Of a DNA stretch of 64,000 nucleotides, positions 6,441 to 59,902 are shown piece by piece; position 1 is the stretch's first letter, and each line of letters starts with the position of its first letter. The notes under the pieces are model-generated. The model was not told the origin of the DNA. It searched no databases and saw only the letters and a list, made by a program, of their open reading frames with translations. This stretch comes from Caenorhabditis elegans (taxonomy: Eukaryota; Nematoda; Chromadorea; Rhabditida; Rhabditidae), in NCBI RefSeq assembly GCF_000002985.6, contig NC_003283.11:5208001-5272000 (forward strand). Direction: 5' to 3'. The position numbers and the translations under genes were made by a program.

Positions 6441-7384
6441 AATTCTTCGTTTCATCAGTTCGTCCGTGATCCGATCAGAATCCGAACTCTGAAGTGTAGT
6501 TTGATGTTATCTCAATCGATCTTATCAAATAATCAAAGATAGACACACTCATTACAAGCTAATTGATTAATGGTGAACGTCCAATAATTTGTTGGAAGAC
6601 ACTCGGAAGACAAAAACTTGTTGAGCACGTAACAGCTGACTATGTCTTGCTCCGTGCTGGACACACGAGCTCAAACATGTTCTTCTCGTCTAAGGCCATT
6701 ATGTTTCTATTTTGATTTTAGGCCCCTCGTTTTAGAGGCATAAAGAGAGGGGGGAAGGAGTGCAAATAGATGTATACAATAATAATTGTTTGGTGGAACT
6801 TTTTTTCGTGAAAAGAGAAGGTGGCGGCGGGGGGTCAGAGAAGCATTTTTGACAAATGTTCTCAACAAATGTCGGCGGTAGCCATCATCAGATTTTTCTT
6901 TTTCACGCACTCTTCTCGTTGCACACACACACACACATTCCTCGAAAAATCCCTTTCCTCACCTTTCTCTACTCACCTGAGAAATTGTTGCCAAAATATC
7001 GAAAAATCTGGGCTCTGGGCTCCTTTTTTTCCTAGTTTTATTGAGATGACTTCCTCAAACTCTCCGCCGCGCGTCATCATTATATTTGTGAACATGTGTT
7101 CTGCTCCACTAAAGCTAACCGGTTTCCATCTAGGCTCCGCTGCTGGGTTTTGATTGTTTTGATTTGTTTCGGGAAGTGAACGAGTGGTGACCGGTGGATG
7201 GAGTGGGGGGAGAATAAACGGGAAAAAAGGTGTATTAAGGTTTCCGTTATGTTTTCAAGTCAACACGCTAGATCGACCTCTTGTGTGTTTTTTTTTTATT
7301 TTTGGAGTCGTAATTTTTTTGAGAAATCTAGGCATCTAGATGGCAAGTGCCATTTCGGCAAATTTTTTTTGTCGACAAATTCGG
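6441..7384. other. Non-coding stretch with a short CA repeat
   Basis: No supportable gene. A dinucleotide CA run lies at about 6920-6936, and the rest is pyrimidine-rich unique sequence that could be regulatory. The ORFs here lack homology I recognise and lack splice context. Confidence 0.4.
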
Positions 7385-7935
7385 CAAATTGGCGATTTGA
7401 CGGAAATTTCAATTCCGGCAATTTTCAGATTTTCCGGAAATTTCAATTCCGGCAATTTTCAGATTTGCCGGAATTTTTATTTTTGGCGAATTGCCGATTT
7501 GCCGGAAGTTTTCTATTCCAGCAATTTACCGATTTGCCGGAAATTTTTATTTTTGGCAAATTGCCGATTTGCCGGAAATTTTTATTTCCGGCAAATTGCC
7601 GATTTGCCGATTTGCCGGAAATTTTGATTTTCGGCAATTTGCCGATTTGCCGAAAACTTTTATTTCCGGCAATTTTCAGATTTGGCGGAATTTTTTATTT
7701 CCGGCAAATTACCGATTTGCCGGTTGGTTTTTGGCAATTTTCAGAATTTGCGGAACTTTTTGTTTTCTGCAATTTTCAGAATGGCCGACAATTTTGATTT
7801 TCGGCGAATTGCCGATTTGCCGAAAATTTTCATTTCCGGCAATTTACCGATTTGCCGGAAATTTCGATTTTCGGCAAATTGCCGATTTGCCGGAAATTTT
7901 CATATTCGGCGATTTGCCGATTTGCCGGAAACTGA
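7385..7935. repeat. Degenerate tandem array of TTTGCCGGAAATTTT / CCGGCAATTTGCCGA units
   Basis: About fifteen imperfect 32-36 bp units, each with GATTTGCCGGAAATTTT followed by ATTTCCGGCAAATTGCC. Each unit is partly self-complementary, so the array can form many small hairpins. It opens long shadow ORFs on both strands that I do not regard as genes. Related arrays lie at 12760-13290 and 59095-59320. Confidence 0.85.
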
Positions 7936-12759: not shown

Positions 12760-13290
12760 TTGCCGTTTTTTCGGCAAATCGGCAATTTATCGCTTTGCCG
12801 GAAATTTTCAGTTCCGTCAATTTGACGATTTGCCGGAAATTTTATTTTTTGGCAAAATGCCGATTTGCCGGAAATGCTTAGAAAAATTTTTTATAAGAAA
12901 AACACCTAAAATTGCCTTTTTTTGAAATTTGGGAATTTCGAAAAAATGGGCAAAACCACAATTTGCCGGAAATTTTTGGCAAATCGGCAATTTATCGCTT
13001 TGCCGGAAATGTTTCGAAGGATTTTTTTAAATTTTAATTTTTTTAAAAACCACCCAAAATTGCCTTTTTTTTAATCGGGAATTTCCAAAAAAAAGGGCAA
13101 AGCCACAAAATGGCGAAAATTTTCGGCAATTGCCGTTGTGCCGGAAATTTCTAGTCCGCCAGTTTGCCTATTTGCCGGAAATTTTCAATTCCGGCAATTT
13201 GCCGATTTGCCGAAAATTTTAAATTCCGGCAATTTGCCGATTTGCCGAAAATTTTCAATTCCGGCAATTTGCCGATCTGCCGAAAAAAAA
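12760..13290. repeat. Second CGGCAATTTGCCGATTTGCCGG array
   Basis: Same unit family as 7385-7935 but interspersed, with AT-rich spacers sharing AAACACCTAAAATTGCC (12677, 12898) and a variant ACCACCCAAAATTGCC at 13049. The most regular part is 13160-13282, where three near-identical 39-bp units occur in tandem. Non-coding. Confidence 0.8.
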
Positions 13291-40898: not shown

Positions 40899-41859
40899 TT
40901 ATCTCATTATAACAGTCGTCATTATGACCGTTTGAGTTTGGGACCGTTCTATTCTTCGTTCCCTTAATAAACGAAGACAATCGTGGCGAAATGATCTGAA
41001 AACAAAAACTACAACTACGGTATGATTTAGTTAAGCTCACTTATTAAATAGTAAAAGCATGCACGGATTAATGTAACAGTGAAGAATCCAGAGACCATTT
41101 AAGATTGCTTGATTTGTGATACTAGTCATATCAATAATGTTAACAAATTTGAACAGAGCTGGATGCCATAAGCATATCATCACAGTGATGTAAGTTGTAA
41201 CAAAACTTGATTGCAGCAGGATTGCAATTTCATCTTTTCTGGACCTCGCATTGCTATGCAATTTTTTTACCTGCAAAACGGGCTCGCATGCTTTCTTGGT
41301 AAGATCTCATTTGTTCACAAACCGAAATAATCAAATATGTAATTATCAAGTAGGAAATGAAGGAAATAATTAGGCATGGGAAACTGAGAGAAATCTCCAA
41401 AGTGTCGAAGGTATGACTGTATGGGACAGTGAAATCATATCCCCAGCCTGGAGGGTACATTTCCATATTTTGAATTGTCAATCCGTAGATCAATAACAAA
41501 AGAATCCGAAATAAAATGAGAGCAAGAATCAATTTAATCGTTTTAAGGTACATGTGAGCCATGTTTAAAAATATCAAAATTCGAAAAACGGATAATAAAG
41601 CAACAATCGGTAAATCGCATATCCATAAGGTGTTCATAATACCTCCAATTATCTAAACATAAATTAAAGAAGAAATACTAGAGCTTGAGGATATGCTAAT
41701 CTCAAACAAGGTACCCTTATCACATTGTCAAACTTTGCCAAATTTGGAAAAATCAAAACTGGCGAAGTTATCCAATGACCAATTCCTTGTCCAAGTAGGC
41801 AAACGTTGACAATATTCATCAATTTGAATGTCATATTCAGAGTTTGTAAATCCTTCAAT
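40899..41859 (-). pseudogene. 7TM chemoreceptor A, lacking the first exon (TM1)
   Basis: Exons matching paralogue exons 2-5: 41715 to 41852 or 41859, 41323-41652, 41041-41270 and 40899-40995. It keeps TM2-TM7 features: GHWITSPVLIFP, NTLWICDLPIVALLSVFRIL, PPGWGYDF, QSSFVTTYITVMICLWHP, NQAILNGLWILHCYINP and LLLFNK, then a basic tail. The 380 bp upstream up to chemoreceptor B contain no equivalent of the first exon, only ATTT repeats, and the first remaining acceptor is ambiguous. A receptor missing TM1 is probably non-functional. An undetected distant or highly diverged first exon is the alternative. Confidence 0.65.
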
Positions 41860-42243
41860 CTGATTGCCTCAAATTACTCATTTGAAATTTATTCTGATTA
41901 CTATTTATTTACCTATTTTTTATTTATTTATTTTTTTTATTTATTTATTTATTTACTATTTACTATTTATCAGAGTCTCTGTTTAATTCGAACAAGCTCG
42001 GAAAAATGGCGGTGCTGTTGGCGCGCATACTAGTAAAAATAGAGAGAAAAATAACTGAATTTAAGAAAAATAACCATAACAAAAAATGCAGGATGATTTA
42101 CGACACTGGGAGCTGGAGCAATTCTGACTGTTTTTTTTTGTTTTTGGATCTTGTTGGAACAGAATACATGAGAAGGTTGGTTAAACGAATTATTTTTTCA
42201 GAAAAATTATTCATTCGAAATTATCTAGCAACTATTATTTATA

Positions 42244-44116
42244 TTATTGTTTTGTTGACATTTTTGACATAACTGCAACAGTTGATCGAGAAGATTTGCG
42301 ACGTTTCACGCCAATTGTTATTAAGCAGTCGTTTCGAATTGATCTAAAAGTGGGGAATTTGTAATAAAAAATTTTTACCTATTTCAGTATGAATGTTGTT
42401 TTATAAACATTGATATTTGACCCAGTTTTTGAGCAACTGTTGAAAAATTTAATTTGAAAATAAAAATGTTTTCAAAATGTACAAATAGTTCTTTACAGCT
42501 CTGTATAAATTTAAAAAAAAAATTGACACTACCGTCAGAAAAAAGGTTTTGTAAATGTGCCGGCATGCCGGACATCTCCTGCTGTCATCTACTCTTGTTC
42601 AACTCACTTATTGAATACTAATATCATAATCGGGTGAAAGTAGCAATGTGAAATCCAAAACAAATTCAAAGTTGCTTGATTTCTGACACTCGTCATATCA
42701 ATTAAATCTTCGGGAATCAAAATTGAATGCCACACACAAATCATCGATGTAATATGGACTGTTACAAATGTTGATTGAGCTAGAATCCGGATTTCATTTT
42801 TTCGAAACTGGGAATTACTAGTTCCGGTTTTCTTCTGAAATTAAAGAGATGAAAGATATAAGTAAGTGAAAATTCCACTACACGTATAATATAGTCGATG
42901 GCAAGATATGACAAATACGATATTGTCAAACTCAGAAAAGACAATCCGATTTCCAGGTGAGCGAATATAGCAGCATGAGGGGCATCCAAGTCGTAAGCCC
43001 AACCGGGAGGAACAAACATGAAGTTTTGAGTTATACATCCGTATAAGAACACATAGACAACCCATGATAATATGCAAACTACGGAAAGTTTGACAAAGAT
43101 TGGGAATTTCGAAGTTTTAATTGTGTTGGTAAATATTAAGACACGGCTTACTGATAGTAGACTCATCATTGGTAAGTCTCCAATCCAGCTTGAATTAATC
43201 ATGCACCCAATTACCTAAACATTATATCATAAAGCATTCGAAAACATTCCTCAGTTGACTATTTAATTGTTTCAAGAAATCCCATAATTTCCAGAAGACT
43301 ACAAATTTTTCAAAGTTTCCAGACTTTCTTTAAATTGTCCAGAACTGTCTCGAATGTTTTTAATAAAGAGGAAAGTTCCCTAAATCGACACAAATCGGCT
43401 CATCTCGCGCCCCGCCCCTTGGGCCCCGGGATGTCTCTGTCTCTTCAACTATCTGGGCACTCTCTGGGCCGGTAATAGCTTCTATGATTTTTCAGACAAC
43501 ATTTTAAAAACTTTCAAAGGTTTGAAAAAACTTCTAAAAATATCAGAAGTTTCTGGAATTTTCCAAAAACCAACTATATTTTTGAAACTACCGTAAACCT
43601 ACCGTGCCACTACAGTATCCCCAAAGTACTATTATAGGAACACAAACTCATACCTCCACTAAGCCCAATATTTCTAGGCCCAAGCCCAATATTTTTCAAT
43701 AAACATTAGCTAAATTTTTTCAAAACTACAATAATCCTGCAGTACACCTGTAGTACGTCTACAGTACTCCTACAGTTTTCGATACTTACCCTGACAATCA
43801 CTTCATATCCCTTTAAAATCTTTGGAAACACCAAAACTGGGGAAGTGATAAAATGACCAGTGGACTGTAAAAGTTGAAAAGTCAGCACAATGATCATCAA
43901 CTTGTATGGAAAATTTGGGGCTCTCCTGTCATTTATGTATGTTACCTAAAACAAAATGTTTTTGAAAATCGGAATTTCTATCAGTATACTCACCTTTATC
44001 ACAATTATCAGCAGTGGCGGTATGAAAATTGTGAATAAAAAGTAGATTATTCCTATTCGGAGCATTTCGGGATCTTCATTAAACGTGAAAATAGATGTAG
44101 AGTTTGGAGATTTCAT
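42244..44116 (-). CDS. Nematode 7TM chemoreceptor B
   Basis: Exons 43994-44116, 43790-43945, 42882-43214, 42608-42834 and 42244-42343; 312 residues. The start MKSPNSTSIFTFNEDPEM is followed by TM1 (IGIIYFLFTIFIPPLLIIVI). Later landmarks are TGHFITSPVLVFP, INSSWIGDLPMMSLLSVSRV, PPGWAYDLD in the loop before TM5, RKNEIRILAQSTFVT before TM6, RNQATLNLFWISHCYFHP and LVFNK in TM7, and a basic C-terminal tail. This is a nematode-specific serpentine receptor likely to act in sensory neurons. I cannot assign the sr subfamily with confidence. It is a tandem duplicate of receptor C with the same intron phases. Confidence 0.82.
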
Positions 44117-45087: not shown

Positions 45088-47198
45088 TTATTTATAGGAT
45101 TGTCTTATTGAGATTTTCGACATAACTGCAACAGTTGATTGAGGAGATTTGCAACGTTTAATGCCAATTGTCCTTAGGCAATCGTTTCGAATTGATCTGA
45201 AAGTGGGGAATTTGTAGAATGTTTTTTGATATTCTTATGATAATCTAATGTTTTCAATCAAAATTTAATATACAAAAAAGTGTAGAAAAGTTTGTTCAAT
45301 TTGAAATTAATATTTAATTTGGTTGAAAATAATGACAAATTTTTCAAATAGTGCTGGAAAGTTGGAATTTGTGTTAAAATTTTTAAAGTTAAAAAAGCAC
45401 TATCTGAAGTTTTTAGAACTTTTCAACAAAAACAAAGATTAAAAAAAAAATCAAATTGAGCGACACTTTTCCTACATTTTTATAATAATTTTTTGTAATT
45501 AAAAGTTATACTATCATACCGAAATATGCAGTTCTTTTTGCAGAAAAAAGCCTCCTCTGCCGCACAGTCTTTAGGAGAAAAACTTAATTTCGGTCCTTTT
45601 CCCGTTTTTTATCACCCTTTATAAAACTTATATATAACAGATATGTATATGTTTTTATCTTCACGTAAAAAATTTACTTTTATTATAATTGAAAGTTGCG
45701 GGAAGTTGCTTAAAAATTGGCTCAAATATCGATAGGCCAATCTGAACGCTCACTCGGCGCATTGGATATTGGGTCAGTTTTTGAGCAACAAAATTTCAAA
45801 CGTTTCAAAACTAGAATCCACTTTTAAAAATTGCCTAAATTGTGAATTAAAAATCCCAAACTTTAGCTATGCCTAAACGTAATCAAAACAAACAAAACAT
45901 AGCTGTTCTTGTTCAACTTACTTATTGAATACTAATATTAAAATCGGGTGAATGTAGCAGTGTGAAATCCAGAACAAATTCAAAGTTGCTTGATTTCTGA
46001 CACTTGCCATGTCAATCAAATTTTCAGGAATCAAAATTGAATGCCACACACAAATCAGCAATGTAATATAGACTGTTACAAATGTTGACTGCACCAAAAT
46101 GCGGATCTCATTTCTTCGAGATTGGGCATTACTAGTTCCGGTTTTCTTCTGTAATTCAAAATATTATAAGCAAGTCAAAACTATCAAAATCCCACGACGC
46201 ATATAATGTAGGCTATGGCAAGATATGAAAGATAAGAAATTGCCAAACTCGGAAAAGATAATCCGATTTCCAAATGATCGAAGGTGGCAGCATGAGGGAC
46301 ATCAAAGTCGTAACCCCAGCCGGGAGGAGCAAACATCAAATTTTGAGTTATACATCCGTATAGGAACACATAAAAAACCCATGATAATATACAGATTATG
46401 GATATTTTGACAAAGATTGGGAATTTCGAAGTTTGAATTGTATTGGTAAATATTAGGACGCGGCATACTGATAATAGACTCATCATTGGTAAGTCTCCCA
46501 CCCAGCTTGTATTAATCATGCATCCAATTACCTAAACGTTATATTAGAAGCCTCTAAACTGAAATTGAATATCCGATTCTGAAATTGCCTAGTCAGAACT
46601 CTCCGCAAGTCATTATTTGCTTATTAAAAACTTTCAAAAAGGTTTGAAAACCTGCTTAAAATTTCATAAGTTTTCTGGAATTCTCAAAAAACAATAAACT
46701 CATAACGCCACTAACCTTAACCCATTATTTGTTCAAGAAACATTAACTCATGTTTTTAAAAGTTACAGTAATCCTAGAGTACACCTGCAGTATGTCTACA
46801 GTACTCCTACAGTACTTTTAAAGTTTTACACAGTAACCCTACAACACCCCATCACTGACCTTTTTCGATACTTACCCTGACAATCACTTCATATCTCTTT
46901 AAAATCTTTGGAAACACCAAAATTGGAGAACTGATAAAATGACCAGTCCCCTGTAAAAGTTGAAACGTCAGCACACAGATCATCAACTTGTATGGCAAAT
47001 TTGGGACTCTCCTGTCTTTTTTGTATGTTACCTAAAATAATACTATTCTTTAACTTTTTTGATCACCAAGCTAACCTTTATCACAATTATTAACAGTGGC
47101 GGTATGAAAATTGTAAATAAAAAATAGATGATTCCTATTTGAAGCATTTCGGGATCTTCATTAAACGTGAAAATGGATGTAGAATTTGGAGATTTCAT
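45088..47198 (-). CDS. Nematode 7TM chemoreceptor C
   Basis: Exons 47076-47198, 46876-47031, 46199-46531, 45922-46148 and 45088-45196; 315 residues. It is almost collinear with receptor B (MKSPNSTSIFTFNEDPEM start, TGHFISSPILVFP, INTSWVGDLPMMSLLSVCRV, PPGWGYDFDVP, LVFNK-type TM7 end, SIRNDCLRTIG tail). The exon 3 donor is weak (TGC|GTCGTG), whereas receptor B has CGT|GTAGTG at the same place. The last intron is 725 bp. Probably functional if that donor is used. Confidence 0.78.
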
Positions 47199-48141: not shown

Positions 48142-49423
48142 TCATGAAGATCTTGGTGGTTTCCAAACACGTTGTTGAGTTGAACTGTTATATCTTAATT
48201 TCAGTTTCAGCAAGCAATCAATCCGAATTGTCCTGAAAAATTGTGAATTTTGGTTTTGATAGAAAAATGAAGCTTATAATCATTGGACGTGTGATTATTT
48301 TATTCATTATAAAATTTAAACTCACTTATGAAATATCAATATAATAATTGGATGACAGTAGCTGTGCAGAATCCAAAAACCATTTGCAATTGCTATGTTT
48401 CTAAATTTAGTCATATCAATAAAAGAAACCATTGTAAAGATAACTGGATGCCATACAACCACTAGGCATGCCATGTATGTGGTTACAAATGTCGACTGAA
48501 TGAGAATCCGTATTTCATTTTTCCTCGATTGATTACTGCCGTTTCGATTTCTTTTCTTAAACGAAACTTTTATTTTGAAGAAGTTTAAGATTGAAACTTA
48601 CAGAGCAAATCAGAAAAATTATAGTGAGGTAGGCGAAATAAGATATCGCCAAGCACGGAACTGTTAAAAATATTTCGAGCATATCAAACAGTTCTGCATA
48701 TGGAACACTGAAATCATATCCCCAACTTGGCGGTGAAAACATTAAGTTTTGAGTTATACAACCAGCAATGAATACGAATAGAACCCAACATACAATGCAA
48801 ACCACTATCATTTTCACTACTAAAGGAGTTATACGAATTTCCATTGAGTTGGCAAAAATTAAAACTCGGCAGATCGCTAAGAGAGCCATCATTGGTAATT
48901 CACCTATCCAGCTGGTATTTGCCATGCATCCAAGTATCTGAATTTTTTTAGTTCAAATTGAATTCTTTCGTCCATGGTGTTTAGTTGAAAAGGAAACTAT
49001 AGCATTATCAGCTACCGTCTCCGCGAGCCATATACTTTATATTTTGAAATTTTTCCAAAAGTTTTTAACGACAAGTAATAAATAATTTTACTCACCCGAA
49101 CAATAACTTCAAATTCGGTAAGCAAAGCAGGGAATACAAGTATTGGGGATGTTATAAAATGACAAATTCCTTGCAAAAGCTGGAGTAATAAAATAAAATT
49201 CATCAATTTATATGTAAAGTTTGGAGTTGTTTTATCTTGTTTATAAATTATCTGAAATTGATAATAGGGTTAAAACAAATTGATTTTTTCTTACTATTAC
49301 CTTCATAATTACATAAAATAATGGAGGAATAAATATTGAAATCGCAAAATATAGTATTCCAACCCAGATCATCCGAACATCTCTGTTCAATGCAAAAAGT
49401 GACGTTGAATTTGTAGCCTTCAT
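48142..49423 (-). CDS. Nematode 7TM chemoreceptor D
   Basis: Exons 49301-49423, 49096-49251, 48602-48937, 48326-48555 and 48142-48232; 311 residues with standard GT-AG junctions. MKATNSTSLFALNRDVRM is followed by TM1 (WVGILYFAISIFIPPLFY), CHFITSPILVFP, NTSWIGELPMMALLAICRVL, PPSWGYDFSVPYAELF, RKNEIRILIQSTFVTTYM, a TM7 of NGFWILHSYCHPIIILIFHK, and the tail TIRIDCLLKLK. Clearly the same family as B, C, E and F but more diverged. No inactivating change is seen. Confidence 0.83.
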
Positions 49424-50035: not shown

Positions 50036-51548
50036 TCATTGAGATTCGATATTATGCTCGTTATTAGCCGAAGGATTTATCGGGTGAATTGAAGAAAGTT
50101 TCGAAAGAATGTCACTTCGTGATGGCCTACTCGGCCTTTTCTTGATTTTAAGAAATCTAAGGCATTCATCTCGAATTGATCTAGAAATTTTAGGATTTCA
50201 ATAATTAAATTCGTGAATTTTGACTTACTTATTACAAACCAACGTCATTATTGGGTTGACATAGCAATGAATAATCAGACAACAATTAAGAATTGCTTGA
50301 TTTCTTTTGCTCTCCATATCAATAAACGAGATCTTTGAGAATAATGATTGGTGCCAGACAAATATCATTGCAGTTATATAAGTTGTTACAAATGTCGATT
50401 GAACAAGAATTGCAATCTCATTTTTCCGCGAATGTACACAACTTACAAGATTTTTCTTCTGGAAATAAAAATTCCAGGAAATTTATTATTGTATTCTAGT
50501 TTGTTAATACCGCATAAATCAAATAAGCCATGAACAGATAAGCAACATAGGATGATGCTAAGCACGCGAAGCTCAACAGCACTTCCAAATTAGCCAATAT
50601 TTCTGCACTTGAAACACTGAAGTCATAGTCCCATCCAGGTGTCACTAGTTGCATATTTAGCGTGGCACATCCCACAAATATCAGGAACATTGTCCATGTG
50701 ATGATGAGGAATAAAGCACATTTTATAGAATTTGGAAACTTTTTTGAATTTATGATATTTGAGAAAATGAGAATTCTGCAAACTGCTAAGAGAGTCATCA
50801 CTGGAAAATCGGCGATCCAAAGACTGTTCATTATGCAACCCATCATCTGAATGTTTTTTATGTGTTAATATTTTAAGTACAGTATTTAATGCGGAAATAG
50901 TTTTAAACCATTCCAATAGTGTTAAAAATTCCAAATTTTGAAAGGTTTGTGTTTACAGTCAAAAACTGGTGAAACCTTCCTTTTACCTATCATAATTTTG
51001 GAAGTCGACCAAAAAACAATTATAAACTCTGATTTTGTTTTAATTGTTTGTACATAACCTTCTAGAAAGCAAAATTGCCGCTGTGCTCGAAGTTTTTAAA
51101 AAAGCTCAAATTTTTTTGAAAATTTGACAATTCCCCAAAACTTTAACTGAAACTTTTGAAAAATCAAAAAAAAAAAAATTAAGAGCTTTATTATGATATT
51201 TGGCCATGCTGATATATTAAAAGTGTATTTGCAAAATTGAACCCACCCTAATTATAACATCAAGCTTCATAAGCAAGTTTGGAAAAATAAGCATCGGGCC
51301 ACTGATAAAATGTGAAATGGTTTGACCAACCTGGCAGAAATTGATCAAATTCATAAGTTTATAAGTTAAATTTGAATTTTCTCGATCCTTGATGCAAATT
51401 GTCTAAATTGAAATTTATATACAATAAAACATTAGAAACTCACTTTCATCAAAACAAAAAATACAGGGAAAAGTGGCAGAGCAATACAAAAGTATGCAAC
51501 CCCGTATTTAACCATTGCCACGTCATTATTAAGTTGGAATAAAGACAT
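50036..51548 (-). CDS. Nematode 7TM chemoreceptor E
   Basis: Exons 51444-51548, 51247-51402, 50511-50846, 50229-50458 and 50036-50180; 323 residues. MSLFQLNNDVAMVKYGVAY leads into TM1, then SHFISGPMLIFP, GCIMNSLWIADFPVMTLLAV, TPGWDYDFSVSSAEIL, RKNEIAILVQSTFVTTYITA, a TM7 ending CYVNPIMTLVCNK, and a longer tail starting SIRDECLRFLK with RPSRPSRSD. Splice sites are canonical, including a CAG acceptor before the MMGCIMN exon. The C-tail is the longest of the group. Appears intact. Confidence 0.83.
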
Positions 51549-56012: not shown

Positions 56013-57667
56013 TCAAGTTTGAATAAACCTTGACACGATCCCTGCTTTAACCTTGTTTCCGCATTTCATCTGATTATCCAGCACATTTCCAACGTCTTCC
56101 CGAATTGATCTGAAAACTTCCAAAAATAGGCCACTCAATTTCAGGCGACCTATGTACCTATTAAAAATCAGCAACATCGTTGGATTAACATAACAGTGAA
56201 TAATCCAAAGGCCATTTAAAATTGCTTGATTCCTTTTGTTACTCATATCAATAAATGATAACAATGAAAAAAGCGTTGGATGCCAAATAATTACCATAAA
56301 AGTTATATAAGTTGTCACAAATGTGTATTGAAGGAGAATTGATATTTCAATTTTTCGAGATTTTGCTGTGCTTTTTATATTTTTCTAAAAATAATTTATT
56401 GTATTTTGATCAGATAATTTAAATTCCTAATACTCACGCAATAGATCAAAAATATAATAATCAGATATGCGAGATAAGAAATCGCCAGGCAGGGAAAACT
56501 CAGATATATTTCGATCGAATCAAATACTTCTGCATAAGGCATCTCATAATCGTAACCCCACCACGGTGGACTGAACTTCATGTTTTGAGTTATGCTCCCA
56601 GAAACTATTACAAAGAATATCCACGACATGAGTGAAAATAATACAATTTTGATAGGAAAGGGAAACTTTTTAGCGTTGATTATATTGCTGAATATCAAAA
56701 TTCTGCAGACAGCAAGTAGCGTCATTACTGGAAGATCGGCAACCCAAAAAGAGTTCATAATGCAACCGATTGTCTGAAAAACTTTGTTTTTGTTTTGAAA
56801 GTTTGCTTTGGGCGAGTCCTAGAAAATTTTGTTGCCCTTTCTATGTATGGTTTTTTCCTTTTTTAAAATAGAAAATTGTGATATCAGAAAATAATCAACA
56901 AAAACTCAATTAATTGTAAGTTAAGTATTATCAAGTTAAGTAACAAAATTTTTAAAATTTAATATATCCATTCTGTTATGATTTTTTTGTCTCTGAGAAA
57001 ATTAAAAAAACCCCTTTTTTGGAAACAGTGTAAAATGCTAAACGCTTGATTTGCTGCTCGAATTCTTGGGATTCTGGAATTTTTTTGCATAAACTTTCAA
57101 CAAAGTTACAAGCACATTAAGCAATTTTTTTTCTGATTTTGGAGTAGTTTTTCTAACTTGCAAAGAAAGGAAATTATTTTCAAAAAATTTTTCCTATGTA
57201 CCAAAACTGGTTTAAAAGTTGTCAAAGTTGGGTGAGTTGTGGCGAATTGTCGATTTTAAAAATTTCATATCTGATTTTTTTTCCATCAATTTCTAAATAA
57301 TCTTTCAAATAAAGAAAGTTGAATTTGAAAATTGTTCAACTAACCCTTATAACAAAATCAAATCTAGATAGAAGATTGGGAAAAATTAATATTGGCGCTG
57401 TGAGAAAATGCCCAGAAGCTTGCACCAGTTGCAGAAAATTAATCAGATTCATCAATTTATATGTCACGTTTGCAGATTGTTTATCCTTATTGAGTACTGC
57501 CTGAAATTAAAAAATTATTCAGCATTTGATGTTAACTTCAAAGCTTCTACCTTCATAATCACAATGAAAATAGGTATTGTAGGGGCTGATAAAGCCAGAA
57601 ATATGATTCCGTATTGAAGCATTTCATTGTCGTGATTGATGGTAAAAATAGATTCAGAATTTGACAT
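56013..57667 (-). CDS. Nematode 7TM chemoreceptor F with a transposon at its start codon
   Basis: Exons 57551-57667, 57345-57500, 56438-56773, 56158-56384 and 56013-56109; 310 residues. MSNSESIFTINHDNEMLQYG is followed by TM1 (IIFLALSAPTIPIFIVIM), GHFLTAPILIFP, MNSFWVADLPVMTLLAVCRI, PPWWGYDYEMPYAEVF, RKIEISILLQYTFVTTYITF, RNQAILNGLWIIHCYVNP, MLLIFNR and the tail SIREDVGNVLDNQ. The coding frame is open and closest in pattern to receptors A and E. The ATG lies within the 8-bp target duplication of a 585-bp inverted-repeat transposon directly upstream, so its original 5' UTR and promoter are displaced. The protein may be intact but its expression could be altered. Confidence 0.82.
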
Positions 57668-58260
57668 GGCAAATACTCCCACTAAGACGTTCTCAACTAC
57701 TTACATACTCAACTACCTACATTTGCTCGGCTGCATCATGGCTCCGTTGCATACGCGCAGTACTTGGAATTCTCTGCCTCATACATCGTGCTCCCATAAA
57801 GACAAAATGGCATTTTCCGCTTCATACACACCTGCTCCGCTGCAGACAAAGTGCTCTTGGACCGACATTCTCTCCCACTTACATGATCTTATGCATACTC
57901 AGTACTTCAAATTCTCACCCTCATACATCGCGCTCCCATAAAGACAAAATGGCATTCTCTGCTTCATACACACCTGCTCCGCTGCAGACAAAGTGCTCGT
58001 CTACCTTCATTTTTCAGCAGCAAATGTTCTGCAAACGTCCACACCGTTAAACGAGATCTCCAGTTTGAGGCAAACACTCATTGACTACCTTCTCATTGAC
58101 TACCTTTTGCTCATTGACTACCTTTCGGATCATTGACTACCTTTGCTCATTGACTACCTCAGATCATTGACTACCTTTCGGCTCACGTAGCTGAGCAATG
58201 TAAGCAGTTGAGTATGTAAGTAGTTGAGAACGTCTTAGTGGGAGTATTTGCCTTTGACAT
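57660..58260. mobile_element. 585-bp non-autonomous inverted-repeat DNA transposon with 8-bp target duplication
   Basis: The element spans 57668-58252. Its ends are inverted copies of about 60 bp starting GGCAAATACTCCCACTAAGA, with only a few mismatches. TTTGACAT flanks it on both sides (57660-57667 and 58253-58260). Internally there is a direct repeat of about 77 bp (CCCATAAAGACAAAATGGCA at about 57793 and 57936) and a TCATTGACTACCTT tandem at 58078-58170. There is no transposase. The 8-bp duplication is what hAT-superfamily enzymes make; the assignment to hAT is inference. Confidence 0.9.
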
Positions 58261-59094
58261 AAAGTTGATAGAGTAAAAAAATGTAAGCAGGAAATTTCAA
58301 ATTGCTTTATGACAAGCAGGCATAAATCACTTTCTCAGAACGCATGACTAAACTGTTTTTCTTTTTTATTTTTCACTGGGAAAAATATGCCAACCTAGTC
58401 ATTTAGGTACGTAACTTCCAATTTTTTCCCAGATCTTTGATAATTTTGAATAAAATCTTAAAGCTAACGCTAAACTTTTTTTTTGTATTTTTTCAGAATT
58501 AAAATTTAAAAAGTTGTGTTTGAACCTTAAAGGCCACAATCTATTTTGAAGCTAGTTTTTCCAAAATTTTCTGATCAAAATTTCAGCAATTCTAGAAATA
58601 ATTTAGATTGTTAGATTTTATTCAAATCTGAAATTTAATCTAAAAATTAATATTATAAAAAACATTGTTTAAAAATTGACATTATTTATATTTTCTGCAA
58701 AACCAAGGTCATTAGGCCATGAAAGTTTTTGTTATATCAGCTGAAACCCGTAGACAATAATTTTGAAGTGATGTTTGAAAAGTTGATTCCAAACATCAAG
58801 CCTGATCAAATATGGAAGTGTTGATGAATTGAATGAAACTTTTATGAATCATTGTGGTCTTTTTGTGATTTTTCCAGTAACAATTTAATTATAGATATTA
58901 TTCGAAAATATAAACAGAATTGTTGACGGTTTGGAAATATTGTCTGGAATAACAGATCTGCGAGAAGTGAGACTCATTACGAATAGCTATCTAGATACTG
59001 AAAATCTTAATTTGAAAATTACCTGACTGGCAATTTTGTATAAAAACAGGCTACGGGCTAAAAAAAAATACAAAGAACAGGAAAGAAGAAATTG
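58261..59094. other. Displaced 5' flank of receptor F and intergenic DNA
   Basis: No gene is supported. The DNA just after 58260 is presumably the former 5' UTR and promoter of receptor F. Confidence 0.45.
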
Positions 59095-59320
59095 ATAGTT
59101 GCCGGCTCATCGACGAATTGCCGGTATTGAAAGTTTTCGGCAAATCGGCAAATCGACACACTGCCGAAACTTAAAATTTCTGGCAAGTCGGCAAATCGGC
59201 AAGTTGCCGGAATTAAAATTTTCGGCAAATCGGCAAATCGGCAAATTGTCGAAATTGAAATTTCGGGCAAATCGGCAAATCGGCAAATTTCGGAATTGAA
59301 GTTTCCGGCAAACTGCGATT
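59095..59320. repeat. Third CGGCAAATCGGCAAATTGCCG array
   Basis: About six units containing TCGGCAAATCGGCAAATTG followed by CGGAATTAAAATTT or variants, in inverted orientation relative to 7385-7935. A lone CCGGCAAGCTGGC fragment lies at about 59470. Non-coding. Confidence 0.8.
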
Positions 59321-59902
59321 TTGCACATTTTTTTGGAAGTTTCAGAATTTCAATTTCAATCGGCAAAATTGTGCGCATCCTGTGTATGTTCCAACGTCTA
59401 ATTTGAAAAGTAAGACAATTTTATGAAAATATCTTAAAAATTTTATAAAAATACCTAATATATATTTCCGGCAAGCTGGCATTTAGCAAAAGGACAATTG
59501 CCGCCTACCCCTGATATAAAACTCGAAAAAAAAATATGGAAAGTTTGATGCCAAATATCAGGTTTCTTTTCTTGTTCTCAACTTTTTGAAATTGAGAACA
59601 CTTCTATTCTATTGAGCATTGTGATGTTTGTACCAATTTAAACAAGGAAACATCAACAAAAAGTCACTTGGATCAGTCATCATGTAAATACGCGTCAGTT
59701 ATGTGTGAACAACTGGTATCTAGTTGATCCTCCGAACTTTGTCACTTCTTTTTCGTTTTTTCGAGAACTGGGCGGCACACAGCAAAAGGGTATAAAATGG
59801 TAAGGAAATGGATGGAAAGGCAGAGTCAATTTGCGACCAGCGGTTATTGTACTACAAATAATTGTTATTTGCTATTTTTCAAAGTGTCATAAGTTCTCAA
59901 CA
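59321..59902 (+). promoter_or_regulatory. 5' flank and TATA promoter of the TIL inhibitor gene
   Basis: TATAAAA at 59791-59797, with probable transcription start near 59820-59830 and about 75 bp of 5' UTR before the ATG. A GC-richer stretch (GAACTGGGCGGCACACAGC) lies just upstream of the TATA box. Confidence 0.6.

Follow-up and report, generated by a model that had tools for sequence, protein, structure and literature searches.

The window analysed here (the whole stretch of DNA, 64 000 nucleotides long, positions 5208001–5272000 of C5) carries on its minus strand a gene, receptor F, with four exons and GT..AG introns: exon 1 spans 57551–57667, exon 2 57345–57500, exon 3 56438–56773 and exon 4, which terminates at TGA, 56013–56384. 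The splice sites were placed by inspection, and the frame is open over 326 codons. Five related genes lie in the same window (exons at 40980–41870, 42547–44104, 45900–47186, 48325–49414 and 50099–51545), which makes six with F; in a genome search, identity between F and these relatives was 44–57% over the two main exons. In Pfam searches no family was matched by the F protein, and no match was found for three paralogue exons. Hydropathy analysis of F, with adjacent windows merged by eye, gave approximately seven or eight hydrophobic stretches; these, together with the occurrence of six related genes in one window, fit a 7TM chemoreceptor. We consider 'chemoreceptor' a reasonable designation for F, one that is not proven by a named family. 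Comparison by eye of the regions upstream of F and its paralogues revealed no clear shared leader. Cluster member A (window 41700–42500) was also read by eye; it shows MRANSTAIFPSLFELNRDSDK, then a stop, then AATA-rich sequence. Since A seems to be without an intact first exon, it may be a broken gene.

Paralogues B and C both start with MKSPNSTSIF and D starts with MKATNSTSLF, whereas the F protein starts with MSNSESIF; relative to the motif that they share, B, C and D begin two residues before F. Paralogue E starts later (MSLFQL). In the frame of F no further ATG is found upstream before a stop at 57701–57703. Because the first residues of B, C and D align with those of F, and because there is no in-frame ATG upstream, position 57667 is likely to be the native start of the receptor.

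Directly at this start codon lies a probably non-autonomous DNA transposon of 585 bp with termini GGCAAATACTCCCAC (57668–58252), recognized by its inverted ends, by genome search and by target duplications. Its terminal inverted repeat consists of two 56-nt arms which are 96% complementary, the receptor-proximal one at 57668–57723 (plus strand) and the promoter-proximal one at 58197–58252 (minus strand). The element is flanked by two copies of the octamer TTTGACAT, at 57660–57667 and 58253–58260, both of which abut the exact ends of the inverted repeat, so that the order read within 56401–59400 is TTTGACAT, GGCAAATACTCCCAC..., ...GTGGGAGTATTTGCC, TTTGACAT. On the minus strand, TTTGACAT reads ATGTCAAA, which is the start of the receptor F frame; the copy at 57660–57667 holds the present receptor start codon and the copy at 58253–58260 a separated upstream ATG. 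Internally the element contains a 112-bp direct repeat on the plus strand, spanning 57758–58011, the two copies of which (57758–57869 and 57900–58011) are 89% identical. It is followed at 58069–58178, also on the plus strand, by GGCAAACACTCATTGACTACC and tandem CTCATTGACTACCTT units. The element is thus a short composite, in which 58069–58178 represents one arm of another element, nested in the first and belonging to the related GGCAAACACTC subfamily. No Rfam family was matched anywhere in the window at gathering scores. Tandem arrays of CGGCAA/TTTGCCG units were also seen at 7382–7931, 12794–13286 and 59109–59312 of the window, one of them about 860 bp from the element. Reading the element as a precise intron was rejected, as no suitable pair of donor and acceptor sites was seen when its two edges were inspected.

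Taken alone, the octamer carries no weight, because its count in the window is at chance level: TTTGACAT occurs six times and 6.96 occurrences are expected. Its repetition was therefore rejected as significant by itself, and it is this commonness of the word (six occurrences, about seven expected) that would speak for a reading with no insertion at all, in which a local duplication produced both the octamer repeat and the inverted ends. The repeat gains its weight because the copies sit exactly at both arm ends; given the base composition, two fixed breakpoints would agree in eight bases by chance with a probability of about 3e-5. Moreover, the same or similar ends occur elsewhere in the genome with different 8- or 9-bp duplications, so that an origin by local duplication is hardly credible. 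The genome searches covered 100 286 401 bases in 7 contigs, and 30 of the 33 matches to a 21-mer end were inspected. All seven elements with both GGCAAA ends resolved have 8- or 9-bp duplications (two of 8 bp and five of 9 bp, the window element included). This count leaves out matches in longer inverted repeats, in which the flanks are inverted, not direct, and one-ended matches such as the remnant at C1:12020333-12020406; it covers only elements whose true ends could be placed, which L012, L015, L016 and L018 are not among, nor is L014, which has no left end. As six other GGCAAA-end elements in the genome carry such duplications, the insertion reading is secure.

Two other long copies were found by genome search with the insert, and their duplications are AGAAATTT (L009; 2389 bp, C4, which is chromosome IV) and the 9-bp TTGAGAAAG (L010; 4540 bp, L010:1700-6239, corresponding to G000:C5:16926199-16930738). 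Related elements with GGCAAAC ends were resolved at four places. Two of them have the duplications TACTATTTC (L011) and TGAATATTG (L017). The third, 1336 bp long and complete, is nested in L009 (L009:2126-3461), where it is flanked by a 9-bp duplication of its own, AAAATTTTG; in the window copy one arm of such a nested element is present, at an internal site other than that in L009. The fourth, an element of 6991 bp on C6 (X), has the 9-bp duplication AAAATTTCC and several open frames (L013:1598-8588). It is a possible autonomous member, and L014, the second X copy, contains a similar element that lacks its left end.

The arm ends and the duplications of relatives thus agree with what the preliminary description had proposed, namely that a transposon inserted at the receptor start codon with an 8-bp target duplication, and its coordinates for the structure proved right wherever they were checked. 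Its view that the downstream octamer copy (57660–57667) still starts the gene also holds, since the gene starts MSNSESIFTINHDNEMLQYGIIF... and continues as an open four-exon frame. The event is of an ordinary kind, the insertion of a DNA transposon which copied a start codon along with its target. Because there are six placements in which a start codon fits entirely within an 8-bp duplication, the exactness is neat but not improbable. The intact receptor frame may be what selection would leave behind. A literature search yielded neither allele data nor a comparable start-codon case, and the part of PMC3903597 that was available held nothing of use on insertions near start codons.

The outer ends of the window element are identical to those of L009: the 56 bases of the receptor-proximal arm match one L009 end (56/56) and the outer 68 bases on the promoter-proximal side match the other (68/68). 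The arms of L009 differ from each other at the same two positions as those of the window element, so these differences came with the element, and its terminal sequence has hardly decayed since parting from L009. For want of such decay the insertion was taken as fairly recent, which the ends weakly suggest; the body, however, shares no more than about 90% identity with either of the other long copies, so that an older age is possible.

The upstream octamer copy opens a 25-codon frame on the minus strand, MSKANTPTKTFSTTYILNCLHCSAT, which runs from 58260 to 58186 and is closed by a TGA at 58185–58183 (58183–58260 in all), exactly as had been described before. It had been suggested that this upstream ATG would lower translation of the receptor. 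This is plausible for read-through transcripts only, and the weight placed on the 25-codon frame is not borne out. In favour of the frame as the main cause of lowered receptor translation, a ribosome scanning from the old promoter would reach its ATG before any other in the inserted block. However, that ATG has kept its old and weak context (AACTTT before the ATG), and 25 codons is an ordinary length, reached by 32% of the 1999 ATG frames in the window. It also does no more than open a series of 26 ATGs that extends from 58260 towards the receptor; of the 25 that follow it, all in the element on the gene strand, 11 have a purine at −3. A long transcript would, furthermore, meet the ATGs of the old flank at 58323, 58345 and 58402 before reaching 58260. 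We therefore regard it as very improbable that the frame itself is the main cause. The frame is probably an incidental result of the place of the duplication and no regulatory device. The mechanism first proposed had chosen the least special part of the change, since what stands between the old promoter and the gene is the whole element, not the 25-codon frame.

The element as a whole is rich in ATGs. Stretches of 585 bp in the window contain 9.1 ATGs on average (sd 3.7), and only 0.24% of them contain as many as 25; this background was computed from overlapping stretches on both strands, the element itself included. Three frames of 29 codons are the longest upstream frames in the element. Since none of the upstream frames extends across the receptor ATG, ribosomes could reinitiate there, which counts against poor translation. 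The insertion also changed the context of the receptor ATG from TTT to GCC, by which a purine was gained at −3. The corresponding base is A in B, C and D and C in E; a purine at this position, as in B, C and D, could favour the receptor ATG and likewise counts against poor translation. At the level of structure, the RNA from 58280 to 57640 folds to −224.5 kcal/mol, compared with an average of −177.85 for shuffled sequences (0 of 20 as low, z −6.9), and in the predicted fold the two arms are paired up to the receptor AUG. According to this model, the two ends of the element would pair in a read-through RNA and form a long hairpin next to the receptor AUG. Acceptor-like sites were noted in the old flank (58376) and in the element (58029, 57982, 57840 and 57682); the last of these, a TCTTAG ending at 57682, has a poor pyrimidine stretch and would give a 14-nt leader without an ATG.

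Taken jointly, insertion and poor translation of read-through mRNA make up the best explanation, and a fairly probable one. A DNA transposon, most likely non-autonomous and Mutator/Foldback-like, inserted into the receptor reading frame within its first eight bases, and repair of the staggered cut duplicated ATGTCAAA, owing to which the downstream reading frame stayed whole. The old leader and promoter were thereby shifted 593 bp away, a displacement that can be read directly from the sequence. An mRNA begun at the old promoter and left unspliced in the element would carry 26 upstream ATGs and the long hairpin and would probably be poorly translated. Much receptor protein would then be expected only from transcripts that begin in the element or from those in which a spliced leader joins an acceptor near the ATG, for example that at 57682.

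Three other views of the effect on the gene have to be weighed, the first of which is compatible with insertion and rivals only the poor-translation part. According to it, the element supplies a new promoter or a spliced-leader acceptor, the receptor transcripts have their start within it and the upstream ATGs do not matter. The four acceptor-like sites within the element point in this direction, but the nearest one has the poor pyrimidine stretch mentioned above and the other three leave ATGs behind them, which makes this rather unlikely. A still bolder version, to which we give slightly less credence, is that the element was taken over as the receptor leader, with internal transcription or spliced-leader joining driving the gene, an improved ATG context (GCC versus TTT) and an untouched coding sequence. 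It is a more serious possibility, if still a doubtful one, that the insertion, which is accepted here too, silenced the receptor, and that F is a recent, decaying pseudogene or is hardly expressed. Inverted ends able to form a hairpin could feed small-RNA silencing, and the first-exon region of cluster member A is broken (by inspection); against this, the frame of F is whole over 326 codons and its splice sites are usable. What we have at present is a well-supported insertion, while its effect on the gene is inferred from sequence. Should expression data show the receptor to be still made, the locus would be a clean natural case for how a nematode gene copes with a leader rich in upstream ATGs and a hairpin, from which trans-splicing is the obvious escape.

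Perhaps of greater interest is the wider family, in which one member carries fragments of host genes. In this member, L010, at least two host loci are represented. The ribosomal protein S13 gene at III:6374120-6374960 is matched by two tandem stretches with 88–93% identity; the first is without both introns, while the second, shorter one is without the first intron (introns placed by inspection). When Pfam was run on five ORF pieces of related elements, PF08069 (the S13 N-terminal domain) was matched above cut-off in one L010 piece (8.9e-18), with PAX below cut-off in the same piece (E 0.012); ribosomal S15 came just below cut-off in another of the five pieces, and nothing was found in the rest. 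Other stretches of L010 derive from a gene at III:5504640-5505290 and keep intron sequence. A region of II (1929172-1930452) matches interleaved parts of the L010 stretch, the S13 part included, and because of this interleaving the region may be related to the composite and not have served as a donor. Altogether, L010 looks like a case of host-gene capture by a worm DNA transposon, and it resembles the gene-capturing Pack-MULEs of plants. A narrow literature search for gene capture by elegans foldback/MULE elements gave a review only.

As to its affiliation, the window element is probably, though not provenly, Mutator/Foldback-like and non-autonomous. All seven resolved elements have target duplications within the range of 8–10 bp, usually 9, that is typical of Mutator/Foldback elements. 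Inverted ends, which in Foldback types are long and made up of short tandem units, are present as well: L011, L017 and L018 have extended arms that contain tandem units, while the window element itself has only its 56-nt ends and an internal tandem block. No transposase family was found by Pfam in ten ORF pieces of the X elements (PF08271, PF05988 and PF15046 came below cut-off); eight of the ten were L014 pieces, which gave sub-cut-off matches only. One ORF piece of an X element resembles a MULE core in its motif only; it has nine genome matches, two of which are the X copies and the other seven of which show 35–44% identity. Searched exon by exon through the genome, the PF10551 (MULE) profile gave no match at E ≤ 0.001. 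The Merlin superfamily has an IS1595-type DDE transposase; the corresponding profile, PF12762, gave no genome match at E ≤ 0.001, a search in which genes with short exons may be missed.

Among known systems, hAT elements, which are characterized by a strict 8-bp duplication and CAG-type ends, share with the window copy the length of its duplication. Membership in hAT was rejected, since 9-bp duplications flank five of the seven elements and GGCAAA forms their ends. Closer to home, the same genome contains GGCAAACACTCATTGACTACC-type palindromic repeats with GGCAAA..ACTC termini and 9-bp duplications (L017, the nested copy in L009 and L013), from which the window element differs in that it begins GGCAAATACTCCCACTAAGACG and has shorter inverted ends. 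The nearest parallel described in another nematode is Tm1, a Mutator/Foldback family of root-knot nematodes that, in the part of the account available, includes elements with and without transposase and has target duplications of 8–10 bp, usually 9, in 45 of 53 cases, without a target consensus (PMC3169594). Tm1 and the elements studied here are alike in having composite inverted ends with short tandem repeats and duplications of 8–10 bp (PMC3169594). As far as that account goes, they differ in terminal sequence and in the place of the tandem units, which belong to the element's own ends in Tm1 and to a nested arm in the window element.
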